From Pseudomonadota bacterium (GTDB lineage Bacteria; Pseudomonadota; Gammaproteobacteria; Burkholderiales; Burkholderiaceae_F): 64,000 nucleotides of DNA. The stretch is from positions 62,001 through 126,000 of the forward strand of contig JAKOQB010000005.1 of the NCBI GenBank assembly GCA_029778535.1. The letters are read 5' to 3'. The notes beneath the pieces are model-generated. The model had not been told where the DNA came from and searched no databases. It worked only from the letters and a program-made list of their open reading frames with translations. The position numbers and the translations under genes are program-made. This document shows, piece by piece, positions 34,950 through 40,852 of this stretch (position 1 is the stretch's first letter; every line of letters starts with the position of its first letter).

Positions 34950-35723
34950 ATGTCCGCGCTCGCCTGGATCGTGCTCGCCAACGTGCTGTCGACGATCGTG
35001 TCGATCAGCCTTGCCGCGCTGCTCAGCTTCCGCCTGCTGTCGGGGCTGGTCGACAAGCTCGTGTGCATGTCGGCCGGGCTGCTGCTGACGGTGGCCACCA
35101 CGCACCTGCTGCCCGAGTCGTTCCACAGCGACGCCGATCCGTTCGTGCTCGGCTGGGTGCTGCTGGCCGGAATCATGGGCTTCTTCCTGCTGGAGAAGGT
35201 GGCGCTGATCCACCACACGCACCACCACGAGGGCGACACGCACCACCATCACCACGGGCACGACGCGGATGAGGCGCGCCGCGGCGGCTGGCCGATCCTG
35301 GTCGGCGACGCGTTCCACAACTTCGGCGACGGCGTGGTGATCGCCGCTGCGTTCCTGGTCGACGTGCACCTCGGCGTGACCGCGACGCTGGCGGTGATGG
35401 CGCACGAGATTCCGCACGAGGTCGGCGATTTCATGATCCTGCTGAACGCGGGATTTGCGAAGCGCAAGGCGTTCGTGTTCAACCTGATCTCGGGTCTATC
35501 CGCGGTCGCGGGCGGCGTGGTCGGCTACTTCGTGCTCGAAACGATGCAGGGCCTGCTGCCGTACGCGCTGCTGATCGCGGCGGCCAGTTTCATCTACATC
35601 GCGCTGTCGGACCTGCTGCCGGAGATGATGCGGCGCTCGTCGCTGCGCCGCTCGCTGCCCGAAGTGCTGCTGGTGCTGGCGGGTGTGGCGATCGGCGCGC
35701 TCGTCACCGGCGGCGGGCACTAG
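34950..35723 (+). CDS. ZIP family metal transporter
   Basis: A 257-residue inner-membrane importer of zinc or related divalent metals, with about eight hydrophobic segments. A histidine-rich cytoplasmic loop lies at 88-104 (HHTHHHEGDTHHHHHGH). The metal-site helices carry HNFGDG at 123-128 and HEIPHE at 152-157, the ZIP TM4 and TM5 signatures. Its end overlaps the convergent marR gene by 20 bases, so their transcripts are antisense to each other. Confidence 0.93.
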   Translation: MSALAWIVLANVLSTIVSISLAALLSFRLLSGLVDKLVCMSAGLLLTVATTHLLPESFHSDADPFVLGWVLLAGIMGFFLLEKVALIHHTHHHEGDTHHHHHGHDADEARRGGWPILVGDAFHNFGDGVVIAAAFLVDVHLGVTATLAVMAHEIPHEVGDFMILLNAGFAKRKAFVFNLISGLSAVAGGVVGYFVLETMQGLLPYALLIAAASFIYIALSDLLPEMMRRSSLRRSLPEVLLVLAGVAIGALVTGGGH

Positions 35724-36345
35724 CCAGCCGCGCGCGGGCGCGCAGTTCCTGCACGGTCGCGAGCCGGTGCTCGCGGCAGATCAGCGCCGAGTCCTGCGCC
35801 GACAGCGGCTCGCCGGTCAGCGCGCAGCGGAAGGCATCCGCACCCTCGATGCGGAAGTGATCGCAGCTTCTGCACACGCCGAAGGTCAGGTTGCCGGTGC
35901 GCCGCTGCAGCTTGCGCAGCGCGCCGGTCATCGCCTCGTCGGCGGCGGCGATCTCATCCGGCGGCAGCGCTGCCAGCGCGGCGTTCCACTCGGAGAGGAA
36001 GCCGAGCGCGTTGAGCGCCTTGCGCCCGCGCGCGGTCAGCCCGAGGTGGATCACACGCCGATCCTTCTCGTCGGTGGTGCGCCAGATCAGCCCCTCGCGC
36101 AGCAGCAGTTGCAGGCTCTGTGACACCGTGCCCTTGGACGTGCCCAGATACTCGGTCAGCGCGATCGCGGTGTCGCTGTAGCGGTTGGCGCGCGCCAGAT
36201 ACGCGAGCGCCTGCAGGTGCACGAGCTGCAGCCCCAGTTCGGTTGCGCGCCGGCGCAGCTCGCCCTGCAGCAAACGGCCGATGCAGGCGGCCGTCTCGAG
36301 CAGGCGGGCGGCCGCGGGCGCGGGGTCGTCACGCATGGGCGCCAT
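35704..36345 (-). CDS. MarR family regulator with a C-terminal cysteine cluster
   Basis: About 213 residues. The winged-helix domain covers roughly 10-145 (LVHLQALAYLAR, TEYLGTSKGTVSQSLQLLLREGLIWRTTDEKDRRVIHLGLT). After it comes FGVCRSCDHFRIEGADAF, then RCALTG and LICREH, a C-x2-C plus two further cysteines and a histidine that could bind zinc, iron or an Fe-S cluster and act as a sensor; this tail is absent from ordinary MarR proteins. It is divergent from cytochrome P460, with palindromes between them. Two starts are possible, MAPMRDD (used) and the MRDD three codons later. Confidence 0.88.
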   Translation of the reverse strand: MAPMRDDPAPAAARLLETAACIGRLLQGELRRRATELGLQLVHLQALAYLARANRYSDTAIALTEYLGTSKGTVSQSLQLLLREGLIWRTTDEKDRRVIHLGLTARGRKALNALGFLSEWNAALAALPPDEIAAADEAMTGALRKLQRRTGNLTFGVCRSCDHFRIEGADAFRCALTGEPLSAQDSALICREHRLATVQELRARARLASARRR

Positions 36346-36357
36346 GGTAGCGGATCG

Positions 36358-36367
36358 AAACCGGTTT
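36358..36367. promoter_or_regulatory. Palindrome AAACCGGTTT, candidate MarR operator 1
   Basis: A perfect 10-bp palindrome in the marR-P460 divergent spacer, overlapping the -35 of the rightward promoter. With the site at 36396 it would let the regulator control both itself and P460. Confidence 0.5.
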
Positions 36368-36394
36368 GACAAATGCGGCGCCGGTCGACACAAT
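36366..36394 (+). promoter_or_regulatory. Predicted sigma-70 promoter for cytochrome P460
   Basis: TTGACA (36366-36371) matches the -35 consensus exactly. CACAAT (36389-36394), 17 bases on, matches TATAAT at four of six positions. It points towards the P460 gene 61 bases away. Confidence 0.6.
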
Positions 36395-36395
36395 A

Positions 36396-36416
36396 GTTTC
36401 GTTTCGAAACCGAAAC
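36396..36416. promoter_or_regulatory. Near-perfect inverted repeat, candidate MarR operator 2
   Basis: The arms GTTTCG (36396-36401) and CGAAAC (36411-36416) flank the palindrome TTTCGAAA (36402-36409), with one asymmetric base. It lies immediately downstream of the predicted -10, around the transcription start, where a bound MarR protein would block initiation. Confidence 0.6.
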
Positions 36417-36454
36417 GACGACCCCATCCATTCATCGCTCAGAGGAGATCACGC

Positions 36455-36931
36455 ATGAAGAAGCTCATCGTCGCCGTCGCCGCGCTCGGCACGCTCGCCG
36501 CCGCGTCCGCCGCCGACCCGAAGGTCGCCTATCCGAACGGCTTCCGCGACTGGCATCACGTGAAGTCGATGGTGATCAACAAGGGCCATCCGCTGTACGA
36601 CGCGGTCGGTGGGATCCACCACATCTACGGCAACCCGAAGGCGATCCAGGGCTACAAGGCCGGCAACAAGTTCGCCGACGGGTCGGTGATCGTGTTCGAC
36701 CTGTTCGAGGCGGTCGACAAGGACAACGCGATCGCCGAAGGCGCGCGCAAGGCGGTCGTCGTGATGGCGCGCGACGGCAAGAAGTTCGCCGCCACCGGCG
36801 GCTGGGGCTACGAGGTTTTCGACGCCAAGACGAAGAAGGGCACGCTCGACGCGAAGGGCGCCGCGGACTGCCACGCCTGCCACACGCAGATGAAGGATTC
36901 GGGCTTTGTGTTCAGCCGACTGCGCGACTGA
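36455..36931 (+). CDS. Cytochrome P460 family protein
   Basis: A 158-residue periplasmic haem protein. A signal peptide ends near residue 20 (AAASAA before DPKVAYPNGF). The single c-type haem motif CHACH (C139, C142, H143) is near the C-terminus, as in P460, and the fold lacks other haem sites. Family members oxidise hydroxylamine or bind nitric oxide, and some have a Lys-haem cross-link that I cannot verify here. AGAGGAG nine bases upstream supports the ATG. Regulation by the divergent MarR gene is likely from the two palindromes between them. Confidence 0.9.
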   Translation: MKKLIVAVAALGTLAAASAADPKVAYPNGFRDWHHVKSMVINKGHPLYDAVGGIHHIYGNPKAIQGYKAGNKFADGSVIVFDLFEAVDKDNAIAEGARKAVVVMARDGKKFAATGGWGYEVFDAKTKKGTLDAKGAADCHACHTQMKDSGFVFSRLRD

Positions 36932-37810: not shown

Positions 37811-38513
37811 TCACCTGTCGACGTCGGATTCGATGGTTTCTTCCGCCGGCTGCGCGCGCCGCGATGATAGGATAGTCGCGATCGCGCCGCTGGCGACGAT
37901 CAGCGCGATGCCGCCGTGTGTGCCGAGAAGCCAGTGGCGAGCACGCCGATCGGTCCGAGCGCCACGCCCATGGCGGCGAAGTAGAACACGATGCGACACT
38001 CCGGTTCACTCAGCTGACCGAGCTCCTTGACGTGCAGGAAGGCCAGCGCGGCCATCACGACCGAAGCCAGCCCCGCGAACGTGGCATTCGAATCGAAGCT
38101 CTCGAAGCTGGGCTGCGGCACCGGCAGCACGCCGGCAAACCCGGCCGCCACCGCGGCCACCATTTCCCACGGAGTGCGGCGCCCCGCTATCAGCGCGACG
38201 GCCACCGAGAACGCGGCCAGGAGCACCGCCGACGTGTAATTGAGCGTCATCGCAGCGCCCGGCGACAGCAGCGACGTCGCGCACAGCCGCAGCGCCAGCG
38301 ACGCGGTGCCGACCGCGTCGCGCCGCAGGTGCAGACGGTCCGTGCGTGGCCAGCGTCTCTTGGCGCACGCGCCGACAGCGCGATGCCGATGCAGCCGAGC
38401 AGCCCGCGATAGAACACGAGCTCGTCCACCCCGTACTTGCGCGCGGCGAGCTTCACGCACACGCCCATCAGCGCGAACAGCGGCGTGGTGACTAGCATCC
38501 AGGGCGATTGCAT
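37811..38513 (-). pseudogene. Decayed EamA/DMT-superfamily exporter
   Basis: The leftward frame from 38513 begins MQSPWMLVTTPLFALMGVCVKLAARKYGVDELVFYRGLLG, an EamA start. It is then continued in another frame by LHLRRDAVGTASLALRL through AMTLNYTSAVLLAAF, FLHVKELGQLSEPECRIVFYFAAM and LATGF. A third frame supplies GGIALIVASGAIATILSSRR and the stop. Two frame changes (about 38330-38400 and about 37925) and a missing block in the second repeat reduce it to 703 bases, against roughly 870-900 expected. The second half is the more damaged. Confidence 0.8.
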
Positions 38514-38722
38514 CGGGCGCGCAGTGTTGCGAGCGGGCGCCGCGCACCTTGCCTCGGGCGCGATGCACGTGCCGCGCGCGGTCATCCCCGCTTTGTGTCG
38601 GCGGCCGTAAGTTCGCGCCGACCGCGGGCGACCCGCGCTCGCGAGCGAGATTCCGCAACCGCTTTTCGCCGCCGGCGATTTCGATCCGCCGCCACATGAC
38701 CCATCTCGCTGGAGGGACGAAC

Positions 38723-40852
38723 ATGACGAACGAACCGAGAGAACGCTCGGCCGGACCGCGCAAGCGACGCGCTGTCACCGCAAGGTTGAAGGGGCGATCG
38801 TCCGGCACCGCGGCGCTGGTCCTCCTCGCCGCGCTGTGCGGCACGGCGGCCGCCGATAAAGGCGCCAGCCCCGCGCAGCTGCGGCGACACATCGACGCGC
38901 AGGTCGGCGGCATCCAGAAGCTGATGGTCCCGGCGCGCGACGAGGATCTGCCGCAGCCGCGGCTTGCGAACGGCAGCCCGGACCCATTCTTCCAGACCAC
39001 CGAGACCAAGCGGTATCTCGGCAAGCAGCTCTTCCACGATCCGATCCGGACCGCACGGATCCTGCCGAACTTCGGCGGCGTGCTTGCCACCCGACAGACC
39101 GCGTCGTGCGGCAGTTGTCACCTAGGCGAATCGGCATCCAAGTCTGGCACGCTCCTGAACTTCGCCGTCGGCGGCGAAGGGCGGCACTACACCGACGCCG
39201 CGGGTAACTTCATCCCGCGCCGGCGGCCGCGCACAGACAATCTTCCGAGGCTACGGAACGCGGCACTCTTTCCCGGCGATGCGCTGGTCGATGAACTACC
39301 CACGCTGACGGACATCTACGAGTTCGCGGTGGGCAGTCCGGCGCGGGGCCGCAAGCTGCCGGATCCGGGTCGACTGCTGCGAACCGGCCGCCTCGACGCG
39401 CTGGACAGCGTCGCGCGCAATGCGCCCGGCGTGATCGGCGCCGCGTTCAACAATCGGCTGCTGCTGGGCGGGTTCGCCGGCGAGCCCGATGCTTCGCCCG
39501 GCGGACTGAACCCGTTCGGCCATCCGGCACAGGAAAGCGTTGCACTGCTTCTGCTCGACGCGCACCGGATGCTGGAGTTCCTGTCGGCCGAACTGCAGCA
39601 GATCGCGGTCTATCGCAAGCTCTTCCGCGACGCGTTTCCCGAGGAAGCTGCGCTGGCGCCGAACTGCACGCCGCTGACGCCGCCGGCGCCGGGAAGCTGC
39701 GATGCGCTGATCAACGACATCACCGTCCTGCGCGCGACGGCGACCTTCCTGCGTGCCACCGTGACGCGCAACACGCCGTGGGACCGGTTCCTGGCCGGTT
39801 CCAACGACGCGCTGACGGAAGGGCAGCGGCGCGGCGCGAGGCTCTTCTTCACCGCGGCCGACAAGGGTGGCGCGGGCTGCTACACGTGCCACAGCGGTCC
39901 GATGCTGAACAAGCAGGTCAACGATCCCGATGTGGCCGGCGTCGGCCGGTTCGTCGAGGAGAACTTCTACAACCTCGGGCTCGGCGACCATCCGCTGCAG
40001 GCGCTGAATCGCGTGGCGAGAAACGACCCGAATTTCCGCGACGACGGCAGACGGGAGATCACGGGCCGCGACAGCGATGCCTTCAAGTTCCGCGTCGTCA
40101 CCCTGCGGCAACTGAAGGACGCGCGGTTCTTCTTCCACAGCGGAGCGTTCTCGAGCGTGAAGGAGGTAGTGCGGTACTTCAATGCCGGCGTGCCGCAGGA
40201 CGCGCAGGCCGCTGCCGCGGGCACGCTGACGTCGCGCTTCACGTTCCCGCGCGGACCCGGAACGCCGCGCGGCCTGGGCCTGAGCGACCAGCAGATCGAC
40301 GATCTGGCCGACTTCATCGAGAACGGCCTGTACGACTCCGCGTTCGTGCATTTCGACCCCAAATCGTCGACACAGATGTTCCAGTTGAGCGAGCGCGACG
40401 TCACGTACTCGAAGTATCGGCCAGATCTCGCGGCATTGGGCGCGGTCGACGGCCGTCCAGCCAGCGGGCGACCGCAGGACAACGACGACGCGCTGTCCCG
40501 GCGCGACATGGGCCTGGAATTCCTCGACGTCACCGCGCAGGCGCAGGCTTCGCCGGTGAACGCCGAGGATCGCGGCACCCGGCGCGAAGTCGTCTACCGC
40601 ATCAGTAACAACGGCACGTCAGTTATCGACACGCACCTGCTGCTGATCGCACGCGGCCTGCCGCGTGACATCCGGCTGGAAAACGGCAGCGGCGTTACGA
40701 GCAGCGGTGACCCTTATCGGCGCGTATTCCTGCGCGACGGCGTGCTCCTGCCAGGCCAGAGCATCGTCGAACGGCTCGTATTCAAGCGGAGCTCGGCCGG
40801 CAAGCCGGTGAACTACAACCTCGTTCTGCTGTCGGGACAGGGCAACCCGTAA
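38723..40852 (+). CDS. Large secreted diheme cytochrome c peroxidase-family protein
   Basis: A 709-residue protein with a basic N-terminus, a hydrophobic signal (about 28-44), and two c-type haem motifs, CGSCH (C129, C132, H133) and CYTCH (C386, C389, H390), in the CcpA/MauG family arrangement. It is far longer than CcpA (about 320 residues): there is about 200 residues between the haems and an extra 150-residue C-terminal domain rich in beta-like sequence. It may reduce peroxide or oxidise a cofactor or substrate. GGAGG seven bases upstream of the ATG fixes the start. Confidence 0.88.
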   Translation: MTNEPRERSAGPRKRRAVTARLKGRSSGTAALVLLAALCGTAAADKGASPAQLRRHIDAQVGGIQKLMVPARDEDLPQPRLANGSPDPFFQTTETKRYLGKQLFHDPIRTARILPNFGGVLATRQTASCGSCHLGESASKSGTLLNFAVGGEGRHYTDAAGNFIPRRRPRTDNLPRLRNAALFPGDALVDELPTLTDIYEFAVGSPARGRKLPDPGRLLRTGRLDALDSVARNAPGVIGAAFNNRLLLGGFAGEPDASPGGLNPFGHPAQESVALLLLDAHRMLEFLSAELQQIAVYRKLFRDAFPEEAALAPNCTPLTPPAPGSCDALINDITVLRATATFLRATVTRNTPWDRFLAGSNDALTEGQRRGARLFFTAADKGGAGCYTCHSGPMLNKQVNDPDVAGVGRFVEENFYNLGLGDHPLQALNRVARNDPNFRDDGRREITGRDSDAFKFRVVTLRQLKDARFFFHSGAFSSVKEVVRYFNAGVPQDAQAAAAGTLTSRFTFPRGPGTPRGLGLSDQQIDDLADFIENGLYDSAFVHFDPKSSTQMFQLSERDVTYSKYRPDLAALGAVDGRPASGRPQDNDDALSRRDMGLEFLDVTAQAQASPVNAEDRGTRREVVYRISNNGTSVIDTHLLLIARGLPRDIRLENGSGVTSSGDPYRRVFLRDGVLLPGQSIVERLVFKRSSAGKPVNYNLVLLSGQGNP

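Follow-up and report, generated by a model that had tools for sequence, protein, structure and literature searches.

A MarR-type regulator with a four-cysteine tail and a conserved palindrome predicted to control cytochrome c'-beta

INTRODUCTION

What does a cytochrome c'-beta do, and can the regulator encoded beside it tell us? A 2025 review states that no cytochrome c', whether alpha or beta, has a precisely determined role (PMC11928373). The question is raised by a locus in a 64,000-nucleotide stretch of a Pseudomonadota genome (GenBank assembly GCA_029778535.1, contig JAKOQB010000005.1, positions 62,001 to 126,000), hereafter the window, in which a gene for a MarR-type regulator (marR) is divergent from a gene for a heme-c protein. 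This arrangement, noted in an original prediction made from the DNA letters, is borne out by the open reading frames (ORFs) and by Pfam. On comparative grounds, the regulator, a palindromic operator and the heme protein as target very probably form one predicted unit. Invariance of four cysteines in the regulator, and a palindrome retained from family to family, set the pair well apart from a local coincidence. A regulator dedicated to it, conserved over a wide range and furnished with a predicted operator, would offer a route to finding the role of c'-beta.

RESULTS

The heme protein is of the c'-beta type

The window protein matches the Pfam family Cytochrome_P460 (PF16694, E 1e-34), and the original prediction had named it accordingly. 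Its best matches in the Protein Data Bank (PDB) are, however, 7zs4, 6hih, 7zqz, 9htv and 7ead (E 4e-49 to 1e-36), with P460-labelled chains far behind (E 8e-9 and weaker). The entries 6hih, 7zs4 (F32V) and 7zqz (F61V) represent c'-beta of Methylococcus capsulatus, and 7ead that of Thermus thermophilus (PMC11928373). In c'-beta, Phe61 replaces the lysine that forms the heme cross-link in P460 (PMC11928373). Phe81 of the window protein aligns with this Phe61, so that the cross-linking residue of P460 is missing, and the CXXCH heme motif of c'-beta is present. By these sequence features the protein belongs to the c'-beta type and not to P460, and the earlier name has been corrected. The hydroxylamine role that had been attached to it is likewise unsupported, because the cross-link lysine is absent and the table of the review gives no NH2OH oxidation for c'-beta (PMC11928373). 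The c'-beta proteins bind nitric oxide (NO); their suggested part in nitrosative defence is not established (PMC11928373).

Phenylalanine occupies the distal capping position in 23 of 24 aligned relatives and the cross-link position in 23 of 24, with one protein (L049) deviating at both. The window protein naturally carries valine (Val51) at the cap, as the Methylococcus protein does in its engineered F32V form. Since loss of the Phe32 cap slows the release of NO and CO 1.5- to 3.6-fold (PMC11928373), the window cytochrome may, by analogy, bind NO more tightly.

The regulator carries four invariant cysteines in a C-terminal tail

The regulator matches MarR_2 (PF12802) with an E value of 6e-12 and 46 bits (cut-off, 27), which identifies a winged-helix protein. 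Its AlphaFold model (mean pLDDT, 78) has a MarR fold, and Foldseek matched it to MepR and other MarR structures. The cysteine-rich tail foreseen by the original prediction is present. No variation is seen at C158, C161, C174 and C190 among 22 aligned regulators, 20 of them from the window and a search of its class and two from plasmids. A strict form of the motif, C..C-x(8-20)-C-x15-C-x-[EDNF], was found in 28 of 31 regulators of diverse lineages and in 80 of 80 from Pseudomonas and Citrobacter; in the three that deviate (L006, L019 and L025) the four cysteines still align. The model shows a compact tail, with the CxxC pair, a hairpin bearing C174, and C190 where a helix begins, at a pLDDT of 63-75 over most of its length. 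Because the cysteines are invariant and because of this predicted fold, the tail quite likely holds a small metal site, either a [4Fe-4S] cluster or zinc.

The window regulator scored 18.2 bits against the model for AdcR-type zinc-responsive MarR proteins (NCBIfam NF038251; cut-off, 175), and no match to Rrf2, the family of NsrR, was obtained at E values up to 0.1. A profile of the tail, built from 30 aligned sequences out of 49 (two spurious frames and 17 further tails were left out), gave protein phosphatases as its best PDB match (E 0.14), which we regard as chance.

Relatives of the regulator at E<=1e-10 occur in 22 of 369 genomes of the class. In the family to which the window belongs, a match at E<=1e-6 came from 4 of 67 genomes, that of the window among them, and the other three proteins lack the tail. 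A close-relative search of the genome collection with the window regulator matched a pattern in 164 stretches and retrieved no relatives. The corresponding profile search matched 562 stretches, of which 534 encode relatives (tblastn, E<=1e-3).

Regulator and cytochrome are linked across genomes

The original prediction had suggested looking for the same layout in relatives. A P460-family match at E<=1e-8 was found in 39 genomes; 17 of these, with E values from 2e-14 to 8e-9, were judged more distant family members and left out, and the remaining 22 contain a strong c'-beta (E<=1e-26). The sought layout recurs: the four-cysteine MarR lies in the c'-beta cluster in 17 of these 22 genomes, divergently in 12 (window included), in tandem in one and as a second branch of the regulator in four. 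Two divergent pairs have genes in between, namely DUF2024 in G102 and a thioredoxin-like gene plus DUF2024 in G118. The rearranged tandem pair (G127) keeps the operator before c'-beta. The regulator and c'-beta co-occur in 15 genomes, 1.3 being expected. Outside the linked 17, c'-beta lies close to a contig edge in G099, and G220 has c'-beta, DUF2024, a thioredoxin-like gene and the operator at one contig end and marR at the end of another contig. In G220, a gene for an HPP-family membrane protein (TM_HPP; L040:374-1408) follows the c'-beta cluster.

In a sample of the phylum, c'-beta at E<=1e-20 was present in 2 of 299 genomes, one of them that of the window; no four-cysteine frame was seen within the 3.5-kb locus of the other (L187). 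As separate observations, HxlR-family genes beside c'-beta (L037:1013-1360 and L046:2102-2422) may encode another regulator, and the Pseudomonas aeruginosa plasmid pAFM-PA19-3158 carries a c'-beta gene (L162:3691-4417) with 59% identity to that of the window near IS66 elements, preceded by what appears by eye to be a degraded thioredoxin-like gene.

A palindrome lies at both predicted promoters

The operator consensus common to the relatives is the 15-bp palindrome GTWTCGA-N-TCGAWAC. Compared with GTWTCGANTCGAWAC, a copy with at most two mismatches lies in 19 of 23 marR upstream regions and one with at most one mismatch in 16 of 23; dinucleotide shuffling gave expectations of 0.06 and, after rounding, 0.00. 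With a looser pattern, GTWTCGNNTCGAWAC, and two mismatches allowed, 99 of 105 loci have a copy within 200 nt upstream. The spacers of relatives contain GTATCGACTCGATAC-type palindromes, often in two copies, before the cytochrome -35 box and after the -10 box; those immediately before the -35 box are of the GTATCG..TCGATAC type.

In the window, site 1 falls within the putative promoter of marR, immediately before the -35 box of the cytochrome, and site 2 follows the -10 box. Site 2 is the single exact match to the looser pattern in the 4.77-Mb genome, and the only other palindrome with one mismatch (C147:120568, L173) has no gene start nearby. In 20 of the 22 genomes with the regulator (G332 and G399 left out), the exact looser pattern was found at 27 places in 16 genomes, 18 of the 27 beside marR or the cluster. 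The count for 25 genomes without a regulator match at E<=1e-10, four of which carry a second-branch MarR, was six places in five genomes, none with the strict centre.

The TTGACA-17-CACAAT promoter of the original prediction is present in the spacer, and promoters that match it or resemble it were found in 7 of 11 relatives scanned. As for the two palindromes proposed there, the GTTTCG/CGAAAC repeat at the start point stands as site 2. The element over the -35 box, AAACCGGTTT (36358-36367, once in the window), exists, and was rejected as an operator for want of a counterpart in the spacers of relatives; it arises where a CGAAAC half-site meets CGGTTTGACA. Conservation marks the predicted sites as an operator, and their position and the usual behavior of MarR proteins suggest binding and repression.

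A second branch has its own palindrome

More distant four-cysteine MarR genes lie upstream of c'-beta on the same strand in G400, G403, G313 and G142, and in plasmids of Thermus thermophilus HB27 and T. oshimai JL-2 c'-beta is followed by such a gene. Over 135 residues, the cytochrome of HB27 (pTT27) does not differ from the T. thermophilus c'-beta of known structure, 7ead. The six second-branch regulators group together on one side of the tree (support 100/99), with the caveat that long branches meet between the two MarR branches. From Gammaproteobacteria-class genomes to the Thermus plasmids, this branch has the palindrome GTTAGGA-N-TCCTAAC (L029-L032, L161 and L163). With up to three mismatches it occurs in two copies in each of four loci and in one per Thermus locus, and the Pseudomonas and Citrobacter loci, as a control, contain two copies in 667,770 bases. 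One type of regulator thus faces one target with two operator codes, which argues that c'-beta is a true target.

In G403 the order is marR, a thioredoxin-like gene, c'-beta and a redoxin gene. An NsrR-like gene in two frames (L030:332-779; 71 bits, cut-off 182) adjoins this cluster.

The regulator also accompanies other genes

The Pseudomonas and Citrobacter set comprises the best 80 of the 562 matched stretches, all from these two genera; it is biased because the first row of the alignment was a Pseudomonas protein. The divergent genes in this set include those for a thioredoxin-like protein (Thioredoxin_3), DUF2024 and Rof, and in Pseudomonas the first operator, GTWTCGA-N-TCGAWAC, precedes this cluster. 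DUF2024 scored above its cut-off in 12 genomes of the class, seven of which have the MarR protein (0.7 expected, p 6e-7; G227, below the Pfam cut-off, is left out). Redox-type neighbors of the regulator comprise thioredoxin-like and redoxin proteins and also AhpD-like ones, which were assigned by eye. MOSC-domain genes follow two regulator copies on Roseobacter plasmids, with a Pfam match for the one from Leisingera.

A gene for a conserved, secreted-looking protein lies beside that for the four-cysteine MarR in L085 (2908-3642) and in 36 other loci (e.g. L110, L022 and L165). The protein is encoded in many Pseudomonas loci, where it has a WHSHW stretch and its gene is among the divergent ones, and also next to marR in a Phaeobacter plasmid. 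No match to it was found in Pfam or NCBIfam, and its structure model (pLDDT, 41) is useless.

Layout of the locus and its surroundings

The features of the locus are compiled in Table 1. The marR frame ends at 35704 and has two candidate ATG codons; the one at 36336 is the likelier start, since the -10-like box of marR (36344-36349) overlaps the one at 36345.

Table 1. Coordinates of the features assigned to the marR/c'-beta locus (window numbering)
Feature	Position	Strand	Basis
marR (four-cysteine MarR)	35704-36345	-	ORF; Pfam MarR_2 above cut-off; MarR fold in AlphaFold model
Four-cysteine tail, C158-x2-C161-x12-C174-x15-C190-x-E-H	35767-35874	-	Alignment; strict motif
Presumed marR promoter, TTGTCA-17-TACCAT, overlapping the cytochrome -35 box	36344-36372	-	Sequence; function inferred
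Predicted operator site 1, GTAGCGGATCGAAAC	36347-36361	.	Two mismatches to GTWTCGANTCGAWAC; same position as better copies in relatives
Cytochrome promoter, TTGACA (36366-36371)-17-CACAAT (36389-36394)	36366-36394	+	Sequence
Predicted operator site 2, GTTTCGTTTCGAAAC	36396-36410	.	One mismatch to consensus; past -10 box, at presumed cytochrome start point
Cytochrome c'-beta gene, N-terminus signal-like	36455-36931	+	PDB comparison; structures named by PMC11928373; key-residue alignment
Val51 codon (distal capping position)	36605-36607	+	Alignment
Phe81 codon (cross-link position)	36695-36697	+	Alignment
Heme motif CHACH	36869-36883	+	Sequence; alignment

A ZIP gene (34950-35723) overlaps the end of marR by 20 bp, tail to tail, as the original prediction had noted. 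Its suggested link to metal import is unsupported, because 53 other loci, with flanks of mostly ~1.5 kb, contain no ZIP relative; neither ZIP nor a sulfurtransferase, which has no relative there either, was retained as part of the system. Farther along, a membrane-protein-like coding stretch on the minus strand (37903-38585), possibly a transporter gene, seems split over two frames, neither of which gave a match in a Pfam search. Downstream (38699-40852) lies the gene for a large diheme cytochrome c peroxidase/MauG-like protein (PF03150).

DISCUSSION

We propose that the regulator is an autoregulated repressor whose four-cysteine site (Fe-S or zinc) senses nitric oxide or thiol-redox stress and whose target is c'-beta; we put the probability of this reading at roughly 60%. 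A MarR dimer would bind the 15-bp palindrome at two sites. At site 2, past the -10 box, it would shut the c'-beta promoter, and at site 1, within the overlapping marR promoter, it would shut marR itself; the placement of the two sites implies repression of both genes. NO or a related thiol-reactive stress would then attack the cysteine site, the dimer would leave the DNA, and c'-beta would be made and trap NO. The nitrosative-stress switch suggested in the original prediction would be in line with this. Among the candidate signals (NO, thiol oxidants, sulfane sulfur or a metal) nitric oxide is plausible, although we rate NO or reactive nitrogen as the natural signal at a little short of even chances.

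Several results weigh against this proposal. The regulator occurs without c'-beta in the 80 Pseudomonas and Citrobacter loci, and c'-beta without the four-cysteine MarR beside it in G080, G251 (where an HxlR-family gene adjoins) and G315 (where marR is unlinked). No palindrome with up to two mismatches was found in 4 of the 23 upstream regions (L009, L011, L012 and L027). Site 1 is degenerate and not significant genome-wide by itself: at two mismatches the strict palindrome occurs at 26 places in the window's own genome (two for the reversed pattern), and site 1 therefore rests on its position and conservation and not on its own score. The tail matched no curated family or solved chain in Pfam, NCBIfam or the PDB, and the hints that it did give, all below the Pfam cut-offs, were of the zinc-ribbon type. 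Finally, the NO-response protein NnrS is only slightly enriched (15 of 22 genomes with the MarR protein, 179 of 369 overall, p 0.045).

The zinc-ribbon hints lead to the strongest competitor, in which the tail holds zinc, and oxidation of its cysteines by thiol oxidants, electrophiles or sulfane sulfur frees the zinc and derepresses the genes, NO being at most one of several triggers. Among the weak Pfam matches of the tail, zinc-ribbon-type models turn up most often (6 of 30 members hit DZR_2, at E 0.0035 for the best), thioredoxin-like, redoxin and AhpD-like neighbors would suit such a chemistry, and several MarR proteins sense sulfane sulfur or reactive oxygen species through cysteines (PMC11211675). 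None of these matches reaches its cut-off, however, and a gas-binding heme protein as target is poorly explained by thiol oxidants alone. We consider this explanation about half as likely as the first.

Far less probable is a metal sensor, as the original prediction had suggested, that reads zinc or iron supply with the ZIP gene as part of the circuit: Cys4 sites can bind metals, the ZIP gene overlaps marR by its 20 bp, and the best NCBIfam match of the Thermus regulator is a zinc-dependent MarR model (37 bits, cut-off 175, thus far below it), but the 53 other loci searched have no ZIP relative, the window protein scores lower still against the AdcR-type model, and c'-beta, thioredoxin-like protein, DUF2024 and Rof are no metal transporters. 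That c'-beta is a mere passenger of a MarR protein controlling itself and other genes, as the Pseudomonas and Citrobacter loci and the unlinked genes of G315 would allow, is hardly credible, given the position of site 2 (on the presumed start point of c'-beta in the window, close to it in the relatives scanned), a link that recurs in the second branch with a different operator, and its survival of the rearrangement in G127.

Returning to the autoregulated repressor, the same regulator and operator precede the genes for thioredoxin-like protein, DUF2024, Rof and the secreted-looking protein, which suggests nitrosative or thiol-redox defence as the theme shared across lineages. Regulator and operator are present in many Pseudomonas species, which would bring the question within reach of laboratory strains, and DUF2024 and the secreted-looking protein gain a first functional context through the link to the regulator. 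Taken furthest, the data might describe a family of Fe-S NO sensors of MarR fold with the Cys4 tail, found from Thermus to Pseudomonas (P. aeruginosa among the latter), with two operator codes that differ by lineage and a nitrosative-defence module (c'-beta, thioredoxin-like protein, DUF2024, Rof and secreted protein) under its control, which would reveal the role of c'-beta. We offer this wider picture tentatively and hold it to be rather doubtful as a whole.

Comparison with known systems

The open-access literature yielded no description of this regulator, which may have been described elsewhere. The target resembles c'-beta of M. capsulatus (6hih) and T. thermophilus (7ead, 8brk), with which it shares the family (E 2e-48 and 1e-36), the CXXCH motif and the phenylalanine at the cross-link position; their distal cap is Phe32 or Phe29, whereas the window protein has valine. 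With cytochrome P460 (6hiu, 2je3, 6amg) it has the Pfam family and fold class in common, but those proteins have the cross-link lysine where it has phenylalanine.

Among cysteine-bearing regulators, a precedent is ArnR of Corynebacteria, a MarR/ArsR-like winged helix-turn-helix protein with C-terminal cysteines and a [4Fe-4S] cluster, whose DNA binding is abolished by NO (PMC12343034). It is described with three conserved cysteines in another spacing, and its targets are given as nar and hmp, unlike the c'-beta predicted here. In small HiPIP-like subunits of glycyl radical enzymes, a CX2CXnCXnC pattern holds a [4Fe-4S] cluster (PMC12358834); the likeness is one of pattern only, and no such subunit was among the PDB matches of the tail profile. 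OsbR and CioR, MarR proteins of Chromobacterium, were considered as members of the same family and rejected, as their accounts name two cysteines for OsbR and one (C52) for CioR. The zinc-dependent AdcR/ZitR proteins combine the MarR fold with a bound metal, but the window regulator reaches 18 bits where their model demands 175. MepR, ST1710, SlyA and FabT have the winged-helix fold of the window regulator as well as the palindromic operator and the divergent, autoregulated layout predicted for its locus; the window regulator adds a tail of ~45 residues with the four invariant cysteines.

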